Shown piece by piece: positions 27,519 to 45,300 of a stretch of DNA of 64,000 nt. How positions within the stretch are numbered: position 1 is the first letter of the stretch; every line of letters starts with the position of its first letter. The notes under the pieces were generated by a model. That model ran no database searches. It was not told where the DNA came from and saw only the letters and a list, made by a program, of their open reading frames with translations. Position numbers and translations under genes: made by a program. The DNA comes from Nymphaea colorata. Taxonomy: Eukaryota; Streptophyta; Magnoliopsida; Nymphaeales; Nymphaeaceae. The stretch spans positions 2,854,001 to 2,918,000 of the forward strand of contig NC_045141.1 in NCBI RefSeq assembly GCF_008831285.2, written 5' to 3'.

Positions 27519-30500
27519 TGTAAAGTTACTTTTTGGGCAGGTCGGGTCGGAGCGGATCCAGACCCGAACCCGAGCCCCACACGTGAAGAGCCCGACGTCT
27601 TCCCTTCTTTTCCCTCGTCTTCCCCTTCGTTCTTTCCTCTTCTAAGTCACGAAGAAGAAACAGGAGGCGGGAGCAACAGTCGACGACGAAGGGCGTGGCA
27701 GCGGCGATGCTTGGGCCAGCGGAGGAAGGGCGACGATGGCGGTGGCGTTGGTAAGCCCTCTCGACCTCTTTGCCTCTTCCTCTCCTTTCTATCTTCTTTT
27801 TTTCTCCTCCTCCCTCCTACGCAACCCTCTCCCCATCTCCTCTGTCTCCTCCTCTCCATCTCCCCCATTTCCCCCGCTCATTTTTGCCTCTCTGTTTGTC
27901 TCTCCTCTCTGTTTGAACTCTCTCTACCCACGCTCTCTCTCCCTTGCCACGTTTCCCCTCTCCCGCTCGTGTTGTCTCACTCCCTCACCCATCCTTTTTC
28001 TCTGCTCTAGCTCTCTCCCTCACCCGAACCCTTGGTTTCCCCTCTATCACTGTCTCCCTCACGTGCGCAACCTCACTCCCATCTTATCGTGCCCTTATTC
28101 ACTCGTTTTTAGCTCCCCTTACAACTACCGTGGGCCTCGTCTAACGACAAACCCCTCTTTTAAACCACTTTTCTGTTGATTTTGACTTTTGGTGGCTGTT
28201 AGATTGGATTGTAGTTTAGGGATGCGTTTTTCCCCTCTTAGCCGTGAGGAGAAGGCATTGGTGGTGGCGGCATTGCATGATTTTAGCCGCTAGGGAATCA
28301 CTCGAACTCTTGAGGTGACTGCCGGGAGCATTGCAACAGTTTAGACTCTAAATTTGGGGTGAGCGAGGCCTAATCGAGCCTAAATTATCGAATATTTATT
28401 GTTAGAGCATGTATAATTATTACTTGAGCATGGTAGATTTAAGAATTGATGAATTAGAATGCATGCTAGCGATGTTATTATTTTGAAAAAAGTTTAGGAT
28501 TATTTTGAGAATGACGAGAATCCACGTGTATATCTATCTCTTTAGCATGATGGGTTGATTTTTGAAGCGATTAGGAAACATGGTAGGAATTGATGTGCTT
28601 GAGAAGATTTAGAACCATTTTCGGGAACATGTGTCGCATACTATTGTGAATATGTGAATTGTGGCGTTAGTTGGGAAAAAATACGTGAGTTGAGTGTGAC
28701 TATTGGGAAGTCGCCTCAACTATGAAAGCAAGCGAAACGTGTATTAGTGATTGGTTGAATCGAAAGTTCGGAACATGGATCATTTGGTAACAACCTCGAG
28801 GGTTGGAAAGAGGCCTTTTAGAGGGCTTTGTGGGTGGACACCCTCTTGAGGTGATGACATGCCTCAATGATTGTATTGTCAGATTTGTATTAATTGTAAA
28901 GCGATGTGAATAGAGAAATTATCGTTTGACTGTGTTTGCAGGTACAACAGGTACGTCAAGTAGACCTTGAGCAACACGGGTTGTAGCTCGAGGTGTTTTG
29001 TGAACGTGCGATAGGTATCGCGGCATTCCAGGCAAATCCCTACCTAGGGCCAACTTCTGAATGTGTGTTTAGGATCGTTGGATCCTGCGGTTGTGATGTG
29101 ATTGAATGATTGTGATGTGATTGAATGATTGCAATGTAATTGAATGAATGTATACATGAGAATTGAATGTTTATGCGATAAGTTTTATTTTGAAAGTTAC
29201 TATGCAATTGCATGTGCATGCTAGAATTGATAACTGCTTAGGACAAATGAGGTGGGGTATCGAGTCGAGTATCTCCTCAATCCCAATTGTGCATTAGAAA
29301 GCATCGTAGAATGATAATTGCCTAGGACAACTACGAGTCAATCATGGATCGAGATTACTCTCTATGGTTTGGCTAAGTTTTGAAAGATGTGATTGATGTA
29401 TTTGATTAATGTGAATGTTGTGGTATGTGGAATATACATTGCCGTGAGCAATAATGCAATTGAATAAAATTGGAGGGTAGTTGTACCCATATTGTATTAC
29501 GGCTAGTTAAGAATGTTAATATGATATGTATAGCCCTCGTATGGAGGTAATTAGAGGTGTGAGTGCACTCATGAAGTGAATCAACCTCATGAGCTAGCCA
29601 GTCATTTTGTGCGTGTGCAATTATAATAATAAGAATGAAAGAATAAGAAATGAGAGGCCAGTGGGTTGTGGCATTGTGTTTGGGAGTTGTCCCGCCTTCG
29701 CCACTGGTCTCGCCTGTTCGGAGCGCAGGCGGTGCAAGGTGTCAGTGTATTATTGTGTGATATGCTTGGAGCATTGGGCTCCCGCCTTCCCAAACTAGGT
29801 GTCCTAGGGAAGGCTGAGTATCTCTCCTTGGAATTCATACATCCATGGACGAGTGCTCTACCGCTACAGTGAGAATGGATCCATACTGTTTCGGGTCACC
29901 ATGGGGGTTGTCTCCCGCTTGTAGGCCACCTGCGGTGTGCACGTGTCTTTATTTGCACCCACAGGAACTATCAATTCACTGAAGCTAATGAAAATGAAAA
30001 GAATATGAATGAAATATATGTGAATGATGTGCATGTGAATGAAATGAATGAGAATGATATGTTTATGCATGCCTTGCATGTGAATTGGAATCATGTTATC
30101 GTGGTCCTTGAGTGGCCTTTACATGTCATGGTATATGTGAGGGGCCTTCTTGTCAAGTCATGTGACTAAGTCATATCACGACATGATGATGATTTGCTTT
30201 TATGATTGTGATTATCTCATAATTGAGCGCTGCCTAAGAAGGTTAGGGATTTTTCTTGGATTGTTGTCATACTGAAGGCTTAACCTTCAATTGTTTCTCC
30301 TTTTTCAGGTTTTGGCGGACTTGGGGCAGCAGGTTGATCAGATGGCTCTATTCACATCCTACTGGGGAGGTTTTGGGTCTTTTGTTGTGGTGGCACGTCA
30401 TGCTTAAGTCTCTTTGATGTCATGGTTTTGTTAGACATCAAAGTTGTGGTCTGGAGGCATTTTGTCATATATATTGATGTGATTTTTGTATGAATTGGAA

Positions 30501-30635
30501 TTGTTATATAAATGAAAGTTTGCCCCATTGTTTTGAATTGCATAGCTCATTCTTTTTTGAATTGTTGTGTCGTTGCACCTCAACATTTTATGTTAAAAAA
30601 AAATGTTTGAGGGTCAAAAAGGTTGGGGTGTGACA
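27519..30635 (+). mobile_element. Solo LTR (about 3.1 kb), related to the LTR at 2,786-5,730
   Basis: Begins TGTAAAGTTACTTTTTGGGC and ends GGTTGGGGTGTGACA, the ends of the LTR at 2,786-5,730 read in the opposite orientation. Shared landmarks are the CCAGACCCGAACCCGAGCCC segment near 27,560, the GGGGTGAGCGAGGCCTAAT segment near 28,355, the GGGCTCCCGCCTTCCC segment near 29,775 and GGTTTTGGCGGACTTGG near 30,308. There is no primer binding site or internal domain on either side. The 5-bp flanks (ACAAA and ATAGA) do not match, so it may have formed by recombination between different insertions or its duplication has decayed. Internal frames (27,711-28,179) are T/C-rich and not genes. Confidence 0.75.
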
Positions 30636-30706
30636 ATAGAAGTTAGATTTAGGAATCTGGGAACTGAAATTGAACTCAACCTGTGATGAATGAACTTGAA
30701 CTAAAC

Positions 30707-30709
30707 TAA
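30707..30709. other. TAA target-site duplication, left
   Basis: TAA directly before the left inverted repeat; the same three bases follow the right repeat at 32,840-32,842. A 3-bp TAA/TTA duplication is the hallmark of PIF/Harbinger insertion. Confidence 0.75.
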
Positions 30710-30760
30710 GGGCCCATTTGATGGGCGGGTGAAATAGCTTGGGGAGGGGTAAATCTGTAC

Positions 30761-30859
30761 GGGCGGGTGAAATTTCACCCGCCCCATTACAAACTCATCA
30801 AACGGGGTGAATTTTCACCCGTTTGACCCAAAAGGGAGCGGGTGAAATTTCACCCGCTC
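30761..30859. repeat. Cluster of palindromes in the left subterminal region
   Basis: Two perfect 24-bp palindromes, 30,761-30,784 and 30,836-30,859, share the core CGGGTGAAATTTCACCCG. An imperfect one lies between them at about 30,801-30,824 (AACGGGGTGAATTTTCACCC). GGGTGAAAT is also part of the terminal inverted repeat, so the palindromes look like copies of that motif facing each other. Confidence 0.9.
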
Positions 30860-31236
30860 GAGTTCATGTTTCGAGCGCTGTATCACCCTCCTCCGCAGCT
30901 CCTGCTCCCTCCTGCCTTCTCACCGTCTTACCACAGCACCACATTAGAACGAGCTCGCCTCTCCGTTGCGTCATCGCCTCTCCGCTGCACCGTCGCCTCT
31001 CTCCTCCGCTGGTATGTTTTCTCCCTTTCTCTCTCTGATGCCTTCCCTTTCTCTCTTGCCCTAAGTTCTTCTAGATTTGGGCATTTCATTTGTTGCCTTG
31101 TCTCTGTGTCCCTCTTTGCCTTGTCTCTGCGTCCCTCTTTGACCATTCCCTGATTTCTTTTTTTTTTTACCATGGAACCGTGAAGAATTCCATCGCCAGT
31201 TGCTCCTTACTCCTCCTCTCTCGCTCTCTCTTTTTT

Positions 31237-31903
31237 TACCATGGAGCACGATGATCAGGGGGTTTGTTTCCAGTGGACTACCCGTGATGGCACTCTCTCT
31301 TTATTCCAAAATGCTTCGTGATGGCATGTTTCCTGATAAATACACATACCCGTTTCTCTTCAAGGCTTGTGGATCTCTAGCTAGGAATGGTCTGGTGCTA
31401 GGGAAATCACTCCATTGTCATGTTTTGGAACTTGGGTATGCGTTGGATCTGTAAGTTCTGACTGGGACCATGCACATGTATGGGCAGTTAGGTTTTCTAG
31501 GGGAACCAACGAAACTGTTCGATAATATGCCGTAGAGAGATGTGGCTTTTTGGACTAGCCTGATCACCTGCTACGCTGCTAATGATTGTTGGGAAGAGGG
31601 GTTATTGGCGTTCAACTTTTTGAGGGATGATTGTATGAAGTCAAATTCAGCGACATTGGTTTGCGTCATGGGCTGTTGTGCTCAGCTGGGTGCGTTGGAC
31701 CAGGCACGATGTTTGCACTCGGTTTTGGAGAAATTGAGCATCAAATTTGATGTCTTTGTTGGCAATTCTCTTATTGATTTGTATGCGAAATGTGGGAGGA
31801 TAGACTATGCTCGTCAAGCCTTTGATGAAATGCCCAAGCGAGACTCATTCTGAGCCGGATGCCGTCACTTTTTTGGCAATCCTTGGCATCTGTCAAGTTG
31901 ATT
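31237..31903 (+). pseudogene. Captured fragment of a PPR (PLS-class) protein gene
   Basis: Several pentatricopeptide repeats are recognisable. PWSTMIRGFV and PDKYTYPFLFKACGSL open the fragment. DVAFWTSLITCYA follows, then NSATLVCVMGCCAQLGALDQ, then VFVGNSLIDLYAKCGRIDYA and FDEMPKRDSF. This spacing is that of a PLS-type PPR protein, which in plants edits or processes organelle RNA. The frame has stops at about 31,452 and 31,533 and at 31,851. It then jumps by one base into EPDAVTFLAIL, a later piece of a PPR motif, implying an internal deletion. There is no start region with a transit peptide and no E or DYW end. It lies wholly within the Harbinger-like element and is not expected to make a working protein. 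Confidence 0.8.
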
Positions 31904-32839
31904 GAAGCAATGAGATCTACAGCAAGTTTCCTTGATGCAGTTGACGAACAACCTCCATCGCTACATATATGTGAAATTTTGTAGTTCAGTGATGCCGGTG
32001 GAAGTGGTTTCTAGGTGAAAGGCTAGATAGATTGCTGAAATCTGATTCACAATGTAAAAATTGCTTCTCTTCTGAAGCTGTTCTTATATCTGTAATGATG
32101 TAATGAGCCTTCAAGGTTGTGAACTCATTTAGCTTGTTAGATTCTGCAAAGCTAATCAGCTGGTTTAGTTTATCTTGTCTTACGAACCCTGTTTGGCTCA
32201 GGAAGGGAGACATAAAGATTATTTTAAATTGATTTAATGAGAGAAAATAGATCCTGGGATGAACAGACATGTCAAGCAACTCCTGATAACCCATGTTGAA
32301 TTGGAGCCAGGAATCCGGAAGTAGTTGCATTTGGGATAATCTAATTATGTATTATGTAATACCCTGTGTGGTCAATTGCCTATATGGCTTAAGGTCAATC
32401 CTAAGCATGGCCAATGTGATCTAATCAAAGTTGGATAGTAGCCAACCAAGATCTAGTAGTAATGGTCATTGAAGATTTCAAATGAAAATTTGATAGAATC
32501 TCATCTACACGTTCTTCTTATGCAATTATAAGCCATAGGAATCATAGAGAATAGCTGCAGAGCGCAGCCTATAAATAGAAATAAGGATTTTCTACGAATT
32601 TAACTCTAAAATTTACATTTAACTAGAGCAAACTACAATAGCTTTCACTGTACATCAAAATCTTGCAATATTATTCATGTGCATCAAACAGGGTTAAATT
32701 TACCACGGTAAATTCTTCTTGTGCATCAAACAGGGCCTCAGATTGGAAGAGGGATAAATTTCATCTTGTAAATTTTTCTAGAAAAATTTACCATGGTAAA
32801 TTTACCGCATTAAATTTCACCCACCCATCAAACGGGCCC

Positions 32840-35170
32840 TAAGGGAAGATATGTCTATGCATAATGAGCATGATCCTAACTTGGTTTGAGTTGGTTGAGT
32901 TTAAATTAAGCTCAGATCCTGCTAAATAAAAGAGAGAGAGAGACCTAATGTAAACATGTAAGTTTGTAACTAAAATTTAGGCTTTGTAACTCAAAACAAG
33001 TGAGACGAGACTTATTTTCCATTGAGATTAACCTATGTTGAGCTTGAATGGGCTTAAGGATGTCAAATTGAGTTAAAAATAACATATTCTTGGTTTCAGT
33101 GAGCTGGCGTGAGCTAGAGTAAGCAGGAATGAGTTGGGCAAAACATTGGTGAGCTAACTCCAACTTCTTCTAGTGGTTTGTAGAGCTAGAAATCACACCA
33201 ACTGAGCTTGTTCTGAATAGTTATTCGAGTTCCTAATGTTTTCTAAAGTTCAAGGGTAAAATGATCATTTGTTAGGATGATGTCAACTTAGCTACTCCAG
33301 CTTTCCTATACCTTAGGTTTTTGGTACTTACATGGACATGTTTTGGACCTAATTCAAGTGAAAAGCCTCTATGTTTAAAATGTCTTTGGAAAACTAGTTT
33401 CAAATTAACATAGTGAGGGATAAAATGGTAATTTAATGTATAAAATTTAGATTGTCTACGGGTGTCTCTTGTTATCACTAAGCCGGTGAAAGCAGACTTG
33501 GTGGCAAAGACAAAAACACGAAATTTTCAAAATAAAAAAATATCGTAGTGTAGGAAAAAGCTCATGGCTTTTTTAAAATGACGTTATAGCTTGAAGTACA
33601 AGGACATGGCCTCTGCTGCTTACAAAAAAAAAGATCCCCTATTTTGGAAATTGGTTTAACTTAGTGATATCTTTTGAAAATATTGTTGATCTAAACATTG
33701 TTTAGAATAAAAAACGCTAAATTATGGAATCGGTTCCAAGAAGTGTCCGAAGTTCCTGCAAGTTTGTTGGATGTTGGATCCTGCTCCAAGTCTGTCTCTT
33801 AATCAATGCCATCAACACTAAGGGAATTTCTTTCTAATTCTCAAGACATGTTTAGAGGAATCATTCTTTATTGGGCATCTGGTAAAGAAGCAATCATTGG
33901 CTTGGAATCTTCCTAGATGCAAGAGACTTCACTCCATGTTGGAGTCGTTTGATGCTTATGGTCTTTGATCCTCGAAGTAGACACTTTTTTTTCTTAATTT
34001 TTACTTTTCTTGTGGCACTGTTGGCTCTTTTCTTTTCCTTTTCAGAACTTCGATTTTTCTTTTGCTTTTTGCACTTTTTGCTGGTCATATTTTTTCTATC
34101 ATCCGGTTACGCCTCACCTTTAGTGGAAGTACCTCACAACCTTAAAAGGCTACTATAAAGTTCCACCACTTTGGTGGTTTTGCATAATTTCATTTATGTG
34201 TTTTATCTATTTTATCTTTACGGGCTTGGAAAACATTCATAAGTCAAGTTCTTTGCGAATAGATGCAAATCGACTTTACATCTGGCTGGTATTCTTGATC
34301 ATTGACTCAAAGGAACAAACCACATGCTTGCCTCGCGTCTATCCCTTACTCATTTTGTAGTGCTCCACCATTATTTTTTTAGACAGTTGAGAGCATTATT
34401 GTCAAACACTTCTTGCAAAATCCGAGTGTGTGCTTGATTTCCTGAGTCAATGACATTTTCTAAATTTTGATCCTTTCAAGTTCATTAAATTCTTCCTCAG
34501 GGTTCATGTCGAGGTTCTGTTTAGAACTTCTTCTCTGACTGTTGAGGGCGACAATTAGTAGTTATTGTTTTCTCAAAAAGATATCAAAGTTGTGAAGATG
34601 TCTTGGATCAAGGAGAGAGCAGATCCTCAATTCTAACGATCACACAAGCCTTGCCTTCTCTTATTTCCTTTTTTTCTGTTTAAAAGGATAAACGAGAATT
34701 ATAAATACAATTGTAATCAAATGAGCATCTAGATTCACCGTATACGTGCATGTACGTGTATGTAAGAATCTTTCACATATGTTCTTTTTACATATTGTCC
34801 AATAATTTATATTCTTCTATTTGAAGTCAATTTGTATTTTGTACATTATATAATTAAATTTAGTGTAACCTGATTAACAAAAAATGAAGTTAAAGTTCAA
34901 TATCAAATTGTGCTTATGATCTGCTGTTGTTAAATCAAAGTTGCAACATCAGGCTCGACCATGCTATAAATCGCTTTGGCCAGTTGGAAGTGCCCCAATA
35001 AATTAATAAATTAATGAGACGTTTGTCAGCCTTACATTCAGCAAGAAATGTCATAATAGGAGATCCTGTCATGAAAGATTGCGATATCGAAAGCTAAAAC
35101 TATAGGCAGAATGCATGGATTAAAAGTACTATCTTCGGTAGTGGGTCCGGAGGAAAAAAGCCAGATGAGC
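32840..35170. other. Intergenic region upstream of the ACT-domain gene
   Basis: No supportable gene. The frames at 33,894-34,158 are low-complexity. The region contains a GA run near 32,931 and AT-rich segments. The last few hundred bases should include the promoter of the gene starting at 35,559. Confidence 0.5.
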
Positions 35171-39353: not shown

Positions 39354-42300
39354 ATTGTTGTGTGCTGCCGGTGGTTGATCTCTTGTGGACAGTTTTGCAA
39401 TGGCTGAAAATCCCAAAACTGATTTCTCTCGTGAGGTTAAAAGTGGAGGAAATCCATTCTCTTATGGTTCTACTGTAAAGTTAGATGGATCTAACTATGA
39501 GATTTAGTCTCGTGTGTTTATGATGTCTGTGATTGGACATCGGAAGGAGCATGTTATAGAAGAAGATGAGCCTGTGGAAAAGAGTGAGAGGTATGTTTCA
39601 TGGAAGGAAGATAATAATATTGTCATGTCTTGGATCATGAATAGCGTGCAACCACAGATTACTTCTACTATTGCATTCTATACCTCTGCCAAACAAATGT
39701 GGGATTTTTTGAAACAAACTTACTCGAATGACAAGAATGTTAGCAAGATATTGCAGGTGGAGGAGGAATTACTTAATTTGCAACAGGGTGACCAGTCTTG
39801 CTCAGTATTTCGCTTCCCTCAAGTCGATCTATGAACGACTTAAAGCATTACGTCCCCCATGTCCAACATGCCATAAGACTCATGGTGAACAGTCTATGGT
39901 TGCGACGTTTCTGCAGGGTCTTTCTCCTGAATATGCAGTAGCAAAGACACAGATGTTGACTGGAGCAGAAATCCCCGACCTATCTGAAGCCTACAATAGA
40001 CTCAACCGCCTTGCTGTGACCCTTTCTCTGCCCTCTAGTGATATCCATGCCTTGGTCAGGAGGTCGTGGACGCAGTTCATTCAGGGGGAGAGGCATAGGT
40101 CGAGGGAGATTTCAGTGCACCTATTGTGGGAAAATAGGGCATTTGGAAGATAGATGTTGGGATAAACATGGTCGTCCTTCCGTTGCTTCCCTAAAAAGAA
40201 ATGTTACACCTAAGCAGCGCAAGAACTCTTTACAGTCTCCTATTGGATCTGTCCAGGCAGCATCATCAGTTATAGACGGGTCTTTATCTTCTTTTCACCC
40301 TGAGACAGTGACTGTGAGTATCAACAAGTCAAAGTATGAAGACTTCCTAGCACACAGATCTACTCAGCCGTTGGCCTCCATAGTCATGATCAACAGCACT
40401 ATGTCCGTTGATACTATCCCACATGATACATGTACCACTTGGATTATTGATTCAGGAGCATCGAGACACTTTTGTAGTAAACCTTCTATGTTTACTGTGC
40501 TACACTCATTACCTTAGACACGTCATGTGAGACTTGCAGATGGTAGATGATCACCTATTATGGGTTATGGAGATATCGAGATTTTTCAGTCTATGACTAT
40601 TCCCAATGTGTTATATGCTCCTAAGTTTCCCACAAATCTGTTATCGGTTGGACAATTGATTAATGATTTACATTGTCGTGTTACGTTTGACTCTGGTTTA
40701 TGTTCATTTCAGGACTTGCAAACTGGGAAGACGATTGGTGGAGGCTATGAGAAAGGGGACATCTACTTCCTGTCGGATCCAGTGGGTATTGCAGCATCAT
40801 CGATCACCTCGTTGTCCTCCTCCTTCCAGTGGCATCTCATACTTGGTCATCCATCTATTTCCAAGCTCCGTCATCTTCTTCCACATCTTTCAGTACCAGA
40901 GTCGTTCCAATGTGAAGCCTGTCAACTTGGCAAATACACCCATAGCAGTTATTCATCGAGTCTTAGTCCGTCCAATTGTGGACTATTTGATCTTCTTCAT
41001 GTTGATGTGTGGGGTACTAGTAGAATTGCTAGTAGGTCAAGATTTCGTTATTTCCTTGTCATTGTTGATGATTATTCTCGAGTCACTTGGGTCTTCCTTT
41101 TGAAGGAAATGTCTGAAGTCTTATGTACTCTAAAAAACCTTATTATTGAAATAAAGACTCAGTTTGGTATTCTTGTTAAAAGCATTCACACTGATAATGC
41201 TCTTGAGTTCAAGACATGTACCTTAATGAAGTTTTACTCTGATAATGACATTTCTCCTCAGTTTACATGTCCCCGTACCTCTCAGCAAAATGGAATAGCT
41301 GAGCGAAAACGTCACCAACATTTAAATGTGGCTCGTTCCCTTATGCTTCATGCTAATCTACCTGCATATTTTTTGGGAGATGCCATTCTCAATGTTTGTT
41401 ACTTGGCCAATCGTTTACCCTCATCCTCCATTGACAACCAGGTTCACATTAAACTTGTGCACCCACAAAGACCCTTGTTTCCAGTAGCTCCTAAAGTATT
41501 TGGTTGCACATGATTTGTTCACATACTTGGACCCACACGTGATAAATTAGGGGCCCAAGCCATTAAATGTATCTTTATTGGCTACTCCAGAAACCATAAA
41601 GGCTACAAATGCTTTGATCCCTTGACTCAAAAAGAGTATATAAGTGCGGATGTCACATTCTTTAAGTCTCAGCCTTATTATAGCTCCACTCCTATCTCTA
41701 CTGAGATGCCACGATCACCAGACCCACTACCTATTCCTCCTATTCCTTTGGAGTCATTCCCTTTTGAATCTCCTTCTAAAGACTCTCCGGCTGTAGTGTC
41801 CAAGTTTCGTAATCCTCCGCTTGTTTATACACGTCGACAGGACCCTTCTCATGATCCTTTGCCAACCGCTTCTCAGGAGGTAAGTTCATCTGAAGTGAGT
41901 AGCCTTAGTCCGTTTGATCCCTGTCAAGACTTACCTATTGCTCTTCGCAAAGGCAAGCGACAATGTACTCTGCATCATATATCTTATTTTGTATCTACTG
42001 ATGGTGTGGGTAAAAGTATGCAACAGTTTATTCAAGCTCTGACTGCTCATACAATTCCTACGTGTCATCAGCAGGCTTTATTAGATACCCAGTGGAGACA
42101 GACTATGCAAGATGAGATGGATGCATTAGTTCAGCGAGGCACCTGGGAACTTGTTGATCCTCCTCTTGATTGTGACATTGTTGGCTCTAAGTGGGTATTC
42201 ACAGTGAAATATAATTCTGATGGTTCTGTGGAACGATACAAAGCTCGGTTGGTTGGTAAGGGCTACACACAGACTTACGGGGTGGATTTCTTTGAGACCT

Positions 42301-45300
42301 TCTCTCCAGTTGCTCGGTTGGGAACCATTCGTCTTATCATTTCAGTGGCTGTACACCATGACTGGCACATGTATCAGCTTAATGTCAAAAACACCTTTTT
42401 GTATGGTGATCTTGATGAAACTGTCTATATGCAACAACCATCAGGGTTTGAACGACAGGGGGAGTGTGGAAAAGTGTGCAAACTGAAGAAAGCTATTTAT
42501 GGACTCAAGCAGAGTCCTCGTGCGTGGTTTCACAAGTTCTCCGAGTTAGTCTCAAAGTGTGGCTTTGCGAGATCTCCCCTTGATCATTCTCTGTTTATCA
42601 AGAAGACTTCCAAGGGTATAACCGTTCTAGTGGTTTATGTTGATGATATTATCCTGACAGGCGACTCTGATCAAGAAATTTTTGATGCAAAGCTGTTTCT
42701 TCAAAAACACTTTATGATGAAAGATCTTGGTCCACTACGTTATTTCTTGGGAATAGAGGTTGCTCGCAATAGGGATGGTGTCGTTCTCTCTCAACGGAAG
42801 TATGTTCTTGATTTATTGTAGGACACTGGGATGTTAGGAGCTAAATTGGCTAATCTACCTATGAATCCACGCATACATTTTTTTGATGACCAAGGAGAAT
42901 TAGTGGATTTTCGTTCATATAGATCCCTTATTGGAAAACTCCTCTATGTTACTGTGACTAGACCAGACATTAGTTTTGCAGTGGGGAAGCTAAGTCAATT
43001 TATGGAAAAACCCAGAAAAGTTCATTGGGATGCTGCTTTGATGGTGGTCAAATATCTGAAATCGTCTTCTGACAAAGGCCTTTTGTTCACAAAAGGTAAG
43101 ACCCTGGAAGTGGAAGCTTATAGTGATGCTGACTATGCTGGCTCAGTCGAAGACAGGAAATCTACCATAGGGTTCTGTGTATTTGTGGGAGACAACCTTA
43201 TGTCGTGGAGAAACAAACAACAAGGTGTGGTGTCAAGATCTAGTGTACAATCCGAATACAGGGTTATGGCTCAAACTCCAGTAGAAATGACTTGGGCTAG
43301 ATCCATGCTATCTAGCCTAAGTGTATCGATTCTGCTTCCCATGAAGATGTATTGTGACAATCAAGCAGCCACATACATTGCAAACAATCCAGTTTTCCAT
43401 GAAAGAACTAAACATATTGAAGTGGACTGCTATTACATTCGGGATCTCGTTCAAAGAGGAACCATTGCCACTATTCATGTTCCTTCAGAAGATTAAGCTG
43501 TAGATATCTTCACCAAAGCTCTTTCTATTGGTGATTTTTCTAGATGTTGTGACAAGTTGAGCATGTTTAATATGTATGCTCCAGCTTGAGGGGGAGTGTT
43601 GAATTAGAAGAGTTTATGTTTCTAGGTGGCTCTTCGTAATATTAAAGAATTATAAGACCTCTTTAATATTTTCTTTATTTTTCATTGATGTAATCTATAA
43701 ATCCCTTTTCTACCCTAATCTCTTTTGTAAGGGAGATTAGGGTTAATGAATAGGGGACTTTTCTCTCTCCAAGACTCATGGCTGCAACAAATAAAAACTT
43801 TTTACCTAGGAAGGCATTAATTTTTTGGGTTTAGTGGCCGTGTCAGCGAGCCTTAACGAGCCGAGTCGTGCTCGTCCATTTATTATCGAGTTGAGCTCAA
43901 GCATAATTTATTGACCGATCTCGAGCTGACTCAGCTTGTGTTCAGGCCTATATTCATCTTTATCAATAATAGTTACCATAATTCCATCATGGAAAAGCAC
44001 GCTGTTGAATTTGAATATAGCAATCCAAATGTTGACTTGTTTCTTTATATTTTTGATCAGTTAGATTGACATTTCTTGACTTATGTACAAGTATAACCAT
44101 TTCGCGATTTTGATTGGAGGAGTTTTGATTGATTTAAGCACTTCAAAGATTAATGGTAATTGTCTCAACAGGGATACCGGAAGAAAAGTTGAAGACCCTG
44201 AATTGCTTGAAGCAATACGATTGACTATTATCAACAATTTGCTAGAATATCATCCGGTAACTGCTTTTATTTATTTATTTTCTGAAGGTCTATAATAATG
44301 ATTAGAAAAGGACGAGAATTCCATGGAATCTATTTCATGTCAGGAATCCAGTGCCCAATTGGCAATGGGAGCAGCTTTTGGAGTGGTGCCACCACAGGAA
44401 AAGGTATGTAGGAACTGGTTCTTGATCTGGCAGGTTCAATCTTAATGCTAATAAGAATATTTGGGCTTTCTGAAAAGTAATCTTGCATCGGAGAAAACAT
44501 ATTTATGATTTATTGATCATGTATTTGACTGAAATTGTAGAGATGAGGCTTTCTGTTAATAAATTGATAGGTGTAGGCAGACATGTTTCATGTCACATTA
44601 TAGGTTATAGATTTGAAATGCTGCTTCAACCTCATCATTGTCTAAGAATGTTGAAAGTAGACTTAATGAACACAAATCATGGAGTGAATTTCCATCTTTG
44701 TTTGCTCAACTTTTCTTATGGAAGTGTCAGCAGTTCTCTTTGCTATAGGTTACCTCAGTGAGAACATGACCTGTGTTATACGTTGGGTTGCCTAACAGAT
44801 TTTTTATCACGTGTCCTTTTCTTCTTTGAGTAGTATTTGTTTGGAGATCCTTCCGATTGTCATGTGTTTGTTCTTCCTGTTTATAATAGACATTTCATGT
44901 GCATGTTTCCTCCATCCCACTGCATGTGTAATTGAAGTTCATAGTTGTTAGTATTTCAACTTCTGGTTCTCTATTTCCATATGGTGTTGAATTGCTGATT
45001 CTTCATATGCCAGGTTGACCTTGATATTGCTACTCACATACATGTTCAGGAAGATGGCCCCAATAGAAGGTGTGCATATCGCGTTGTTTTTTTCATAAGC
45101 CTCCTCAATGTTCACTTTTTTTCTTGTTAATTTACAAAATTTGTCGTTCAATTTATATCTCACGAATTACTGATACCTGATGGGTCTTCATGGGGCCCAT
45201 TGACATCTGGAGTTTACAGAGGCATTTGCCTGATTTTCCTTATAGTTTCAGGTCCTTCATTATGTAGGTCTAGGGCTGTACAATGAGTTGAGCCAGCTTG

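Follow-up and report, generated by a model that had tools for sequence, protein, structure and literature searches.

A 2.1-kb stretch of the Nymphaea colorata genome is very probably a Pack-type PIF/Harbinger element, non-autonomous and with donors that can be named. It occupies positions 30710-32839 of the window, the whole 64,000-nt stretch analyzed (NC_045141.1, 2,854,001-2,918,000; this contig is called C4). Judged by similarity, its cargo is drawn from three sources: a PPR gene, sequence downstream of an mTERF gene, and a dispersed repeat. Our high confidence covers the identification as Pack-PIF and the choice of donors; how the cargo was assembled, perhaps by template switching or gap filling, is graded separately below.

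The two terminal inverted repeats (TIRs), each 26 bp long and recognized by its match to the opposite end, lie at 30710-30735 on the plus strand and at 32814-32839 on the minus strand. They are flanked by the two copies of a TAA target site duplication (TSD), at 30707-30709 and 32840-32842, which can be read directly from the sequence. An initial annotation had described both the repeats and the duplication, and the description is exact to the base: 24 of the 26 positions are identical, and TAA is present on both sides. Scanning the 408-Mb genome with the 26-bp end sequence (≤3 mismatches) gave 197 sites, including the two ends of the window element, versus none for a reversed control pattern in the same genome; thus, the family ends are not due to chance. 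The annotation's assignment to PIF/Harbinger is borne out by the TAA duplication and by ends held in common with elements that encode a DDE_Tnp_4 transposase. As it had also stated, the element has no transposase of its own: DDE_Tnp_4 was absent from it among the 150 matches scored of 307 candidates in the genome. There is no open reading frame (ORF) of ≥200 amino acids within 30710-32839, and an Rfam scan of the 64-kb window returned no matches.

Querying the genome with approximately the first 300 and the last 300 bases of the element, and taking the best 40 of 323 and the best 40 of 572 candidates, yielded dozens of family members, which are lower bounds. The initial annotation had raised the question of whether the same ends enclose different cargo elsewhere, and such elements exist. 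Twenty-one of the 150 scored DDE_Tnp_4 matches are no more than 2.5 kb from one of 100 listed ends (the list holds 100 of the 197 sites); only 0.18 would be expected if the matches were evenly scattered. Pairing the listed ends gave 26 elements, of which six have an internal transposase match. In five of these six (L021-L025), and in L020, which has a more diverged 5′ end, the DDE match lies between both ends, and each side of all six elements L020-L025 is flanked by TTA or TAA. An ORF of L019 matches PF13359 (E value, 1.7e-17); for a Myb-like ORF1, the single candidate ORF scanned at L019 had no Pfam match above the cutoff.

The scan for ends took in L001-L038 and the window element, with L039-L053 outside it. 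Identical 3-bp flanks were found in 25 of 29 two-ended elements (23 TAA or TTA, one TCA, and one CTA), the other four being L017, L031, L033, and L036; because most of the 29 were chosen for hits at both ends, they are not a random sample. This count omits the loci at which a single end could be read (L014, L016, L018, L019, and L038) and an array on C5 (L026 and L027). The array (C5:18823000-18834500) contains seven family 5′ ends in the same orientation, ∼1.5 to 1.8 kb apart, six of which are followed by TTAAGG; it looks like the tandem duplication of a locus, not repeated insertion. At another locus, on C7, the 3′ end of one copy abuts a second family TIR, separated from it by a single TTA (L002 2810-2864, C7:15235809-15235863); here two family elements are inserted side by side.

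The interior of the element is assigned to the leader, the PPR gene, the mTERF locus, and the repeat, and all the parts that follow are on the plus strand. Family comparison identifies a 5′ terminal module (30710-30861), common to the family including its transposase-encoding members, and a 3′ terminal module (32670-32839), also common to the family. Alignment assigns 31240-31851 to the PPR donor on C1 (L004 1765-2376; 94.8% identity over 612 bp) and the next 35 bases, 31852-31886, to L004 2466-2500. In the donor, 89 bp lie between these two pieces and are skipped in the element (87 bp if measured from the overlapping ends of the BLAST alignments); CT is shared, and owing to this skip the second piece is out of frame with the first. 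The PPR sequence is joined at a shared TTGG to the first piece of the mTERF locus (31883-32033; L005 2025-2183, on C7). The second mTERF-locus piece (32034-32093; L005 2263-2322) is reached by skipping 79 bp, TT being shared, and the third (32094-32337; L005 2588-2830) by skipping 265 bp. Together the PPR pieces amount to 647 bp and those from the mTERF locus to ∼455 bp. The last piece, 32338-32669, belongs to a dispersed repeat and is 68 to 84% identical to copies outside this element's copies; four genomic places that match both halves of it hold extra sequence where the element jumps.

The PPR motifs seen at the outset are recognized by Pfam (PPR_2, E value of 2.5e-15; PPR, E value of 2.8e-14; translation with X at two stops). 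Their donor on C1 has an intact open frame of 523 amino acids with PPR, E, and E+ motifs, so the claim of a captured PPR fragment now has its donor gene. The PPR match stays inside 30710-32839, and the contrary case considered in the initial annotation, PPR sequence continuing outside the element, failed. The mTERF-locus cargo derives from C7, from sequence that lies ∼1 to 2 kb downstream of a frame resembling mTERF. At 95% identity, the actual donor could also have been a paralogue or allele that is not among the sequences sampled.

Between the 5′ module and the PPR sequence is a GC-rich leader (30862-31239), which by family comparison is the transposon's own because parts of it are found in transposase-encoding L019 and L020 and in many other members. 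Positions 30862-31065 are matched in L019 and L020, with the first 200 bases at 72 to 73%, and positions 31146-31235 are matched in other family members. The initial annotation had called this segment exon-like. The GC-rich stretch does exist, but its interpretation as a captured exon did not hold, as parts recur in members that encode transposase. With 40 of 53 candidates scored, the matches that could be placed fell in family members or beside transposase hits, and we rejected a host exon as the source.

Copies of the window type, carrying the PPR, mTERF-locus, and repeat pieces, are present at three sites: the window itself on C4, C6:17407675-17409908 (L001), and C7:15233629-15235834 (L002). 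Two relatives, L003 on C9 and L006 (C6:15483), bear the PPR sequence without the mTERF piece, and L006 has suffered a further loss inside the same cargo. Whole-element K2P distances are 0.025 between the window copy and L002, 0.038 between the window copy and L001, and 0.050 between L001 and L002. Each of the five PPR-bearing copies has a matching 3-bp duplication at its site, and their ten 200-bp flanks had no mutual similarity at an E value of 0.01. The same PPR capture is therefore present at five sites with separate duplications. Because there are three full copies and two PPR relatives with their own TSDs and unrelated flanks, the element has been mobile as a unit after the capture.

The site of insertion can also be recognized. 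On its right side, the element adjoins a copy of a diverged dispersed repeat; this has 33 matches other than to itself, 13 of which come within 28 bases of the insertion point. In all 11 of these 13 that were fetched, the joined flanks aligned without the 2.1 kb; the left ends of the alignments are at ∼30638-30685. Six of these 11 paralogous empty sites have a single TAA at the insertion point, and the remainder have TCA, TGA, or a small gap. The element was inserted into a dispersed repeat, duplicating TAA. To the left is a G- and T-rich stretch, 28250-30637, which stops just left of the insertion, the alignments of the paralogous repeats starting to the right of it; our impression is that it looks like the end of a retrotransposon. 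Farther along the window, 40560-43496 contains three long frames that resemble a Copia-type retrotransposon polyprotein (integrase, reverse transcriptase, and RNase H).

A protein role for the cargo is unlikely. The four copies compared (L006 was outside the comparison) all have stops or frameshifts, from which we infer that the cargo is without protein function. Differences between the window copy and the donor number 10, 9, and 15 at codon positions 1, 2, and 3; with the broken frames, purifying selection on the cargo is not evident. Chimeric transcripts or small RNAs directed against the donor are possible products of such sequence.

Comparison of the PPR-bearing copies indicates that the cargo was built stepwise. 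The C9 relative has a longer PPR stretch and no mTERF sequence: it matches L004 1765-2376, 2464-2661, 3150-3212, and 3388-3442 and runs beyond the stop codon. The copies on C4, C6, and C7 leave the PPR stretch at TTGG, a sequence present in both donors, and continue into the mTERF locus and then the repeat. The 89-bp skip is common to L003, L006, and the window element, so a single capture most simply underlies all of them. This skip and part of the 494-bp skip of L003 (also counted as 488 bp) fall within the open frame of the PPR donor. At the third PPR skip there is a small filler (L003 1939-1943) that weakly resembles a templated insertion.

Other members of the family carry other captures. 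In a second lineage, L010, two stretches of a C10 gene are joined over a 1,348-bp skip that leads from open frame into intron-like sequence, and further copies are on C3 (L052), C7, and C9. The C10 donor gene is coiled-coil-like by weak Pfam matches, below the cutoff. A third capture, from a C8 locus found via a weak PPR-like match, is partly common to L012 and L053 and also has skips. Among the member peptides, Pfam matches below the cutoff gave only tentative names (L007, acyl-CoA-binding-like; L010, coiled-coil-like; L012, PPR-like; L013, KIP1-like), and the L018 peptide had no Pfam match.

Seven junctions were tested for shared bases, four in the window element and one each in L003, L010, and L053. 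Shared bases numbered two at the 89-bp PPR skip, two at the 494-bp PPR skip of L003, four at the PPR-to-mTERF join, two at the 79-bp mTERF skip, and zero at the 265-bp mTERF skip and at the L010 and L053 junctions. At least 2 bp were thus shared at four of the seven, more than expected from random breakpoints (P = 0.02). For the summed shared length, P was 0.065, with the null sum inflated by same-locus coincidences in the simulation. The test omits the leader-to-PPR junction, where CATGGA is shared, because the copy of the leader there is itself altered; it also omits the third PPR skip, the mTERF-to-repeat join, the jump inside the repeat, the repeat-to-3′-module join, the L012 skip, and the second L053 skip.

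These features suggest the following mechanism. The element would be moved by the family transposase, supplied in trans. Its cargo would have been gained from DNA, while a copy of the element was being repaired or replicated; synthesis would have jumped from donor to donor and from place to place within a donor, with few or no bases in common at the jumps, as in gap filling or template switching. The junction and skip data point toward template switching or gap filling but are not proof of it, and for this step alone we put the chance at slightly better than even. A broader proposal is more tentative, plausible but somewhat short of probable: the family would assemble its cargo through repeated template switching during copying, adding and trimming pieces of unlinked loci stepwise within one element lineage and skipping within donors, and not through the fusion of neighbors that has been put forward for plant Pack-TYPE elements.

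The strongest alternative concerns only the skips and is compatible with a Pack-PIF element: a donor stretch may have been captured continuously, the skips arising later as ordinary internal deletions in a common forerunner of the copies. DNA transposons often undergo internal deletions. The pieces keep the order and orientation of the donor, and L006 has in fact lost more of the same cargo. On the other hand, the PPR-to-mTERF join is impossible as a deletion within one donor, and the L003 filler weakly resembles a templated insertion. Later deletion is a real alternative for the skips, one that we regard as possible while not expecting it to be the answer.

Template switching or gap filling is more likely than fusion of neighbors, in which two family elements flanking host DNA come to move as one unit, as in the model of Gisby and Catoni (PMC8903248). 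That model was published for maize Pack-PIF elements, and the adjacent family ends that it needs do occur, as at L002. But the two donors are on different contigs; the stretches read around them, 4.5 and 4.2 kb (1 to 2 kb on either side), contain no family ends, and inspection of the listed ends placed none within 800 kb of either one. The lists cover 100 of the 197 end sites and, for the terminal regions, 40 of 323 and 40 of 572 candidates, so the donor neighborhoods appear clear only within that range. In addition, parts of the donors are missing between the cargo pieces, the PPR/mTERF junction shows no remnant of an internal TIR, and at least two separate fusions would be required. We consider neighbor fusion improbable.

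Far less probable still is a retro-copy, with the cargo originating from spliced RNA and later enclosed by the transposon. At first sight the donor skips do resemble intron loss, and the mTERF-locus pieces looked exon-like. Yet, of nine skips aligned in the PPR, mTERF, L010, and C8-locus captures, not one is bounded by GT..AG, the 89-bp skip is within an intact coding frame, and L010 retains intron-like sequence; on the first two of these observations we rejected intron loss. Scarcely credible is the alternative raised in the initial annotation, two separate same-family MITEs flanking an old PPR pseudogene. In its favor, some family members are shorter and lack a transposase match, and family ends can adjoin (L002). 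But the element is repeated from end to end on C6 and C7, with clean duplications and with flanks that are unrelated, giving three full-structure copies, while the 11 paralogous repeats fetched lack the entire 2.1 kb and such ends are absent from the donor stretch that was read.

Several models compete to explain how cut-and-paste transposons acquire host genes: gap filling and replication template switching (PMC8277862) and fusion of neighbors (PMC8903248). The history of assembly of this element is unusually readable. Neither donor has been lost, the genome contains the cargo at earlier as well as later stages, and several junctions are resolved to single bases, so that the models of capture give different predictions, checkable in related haplotypes. 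In animals, Pack-TIRs have been explained by gap-filling and FoSTeST models, with breakpoint microhomology of a median 2 bp (PMC8277862). The element described here is similar in its short microhomology at breakpoints and in becoming multicopy after transposition; that study is of animals and names plant Pack-MULEs as a case in which a test would be worthwhile.

Other parallels come from plants. Grapevine Cactavine-5 captured part of a PPR coding sequence plus the 3′ UTR (Benjak et al. 2008, PMC2528002), and here too a PPR coding part was captured, with L003 running past the stop codon; Cactavine-5 differs in belonging to the CACTA superfamily and in carrying the PPR sequence in the orientation opposite to the transposase frame. 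The Pifvine-3 elements of grapevine are PIF elements that carry transduplicated host sequence, exons and introns, in several copies (PMC2528002). They share with our family stretches highly identical to the host genome and present in several copies, but in Pifvine-3 the captured sequence is in a long 5′ region, whereas in our element, which lacks a transposase, the interior is taken up by the cargo. The initial annotation's remark that capture is seldom noted for Harbinger-type elements must be amended accordingly, since capture by PIF elements has been published (PMC2528002, PMC8903248). Among the open-access full texts searched, the term "Pack-PIF" appeared only in PMC8903248 (Gisby and Catoni 2022), which describes such elements in maize and rice. 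Those elements resemble ours in having PIF TIRs, TTA/TAA duplications, host fragments, multiple copies, and the successive addition of fragments from two genes. The last feature was described for Zm-Pack-PIF cluster 18, with fragments of 163 and 58 bp (PMC8903248), versus the larger pieces of 647 bp and ∼455 bp here. Relative to the maize and rice elements as described there, ours is distinguished by its unlinked donors and by a patchwork with skips. Gene-carrying PIF elements are thus already known; what is new is a clear mosaic of a PPR gene and an mTERF locus, together with its intermediate.
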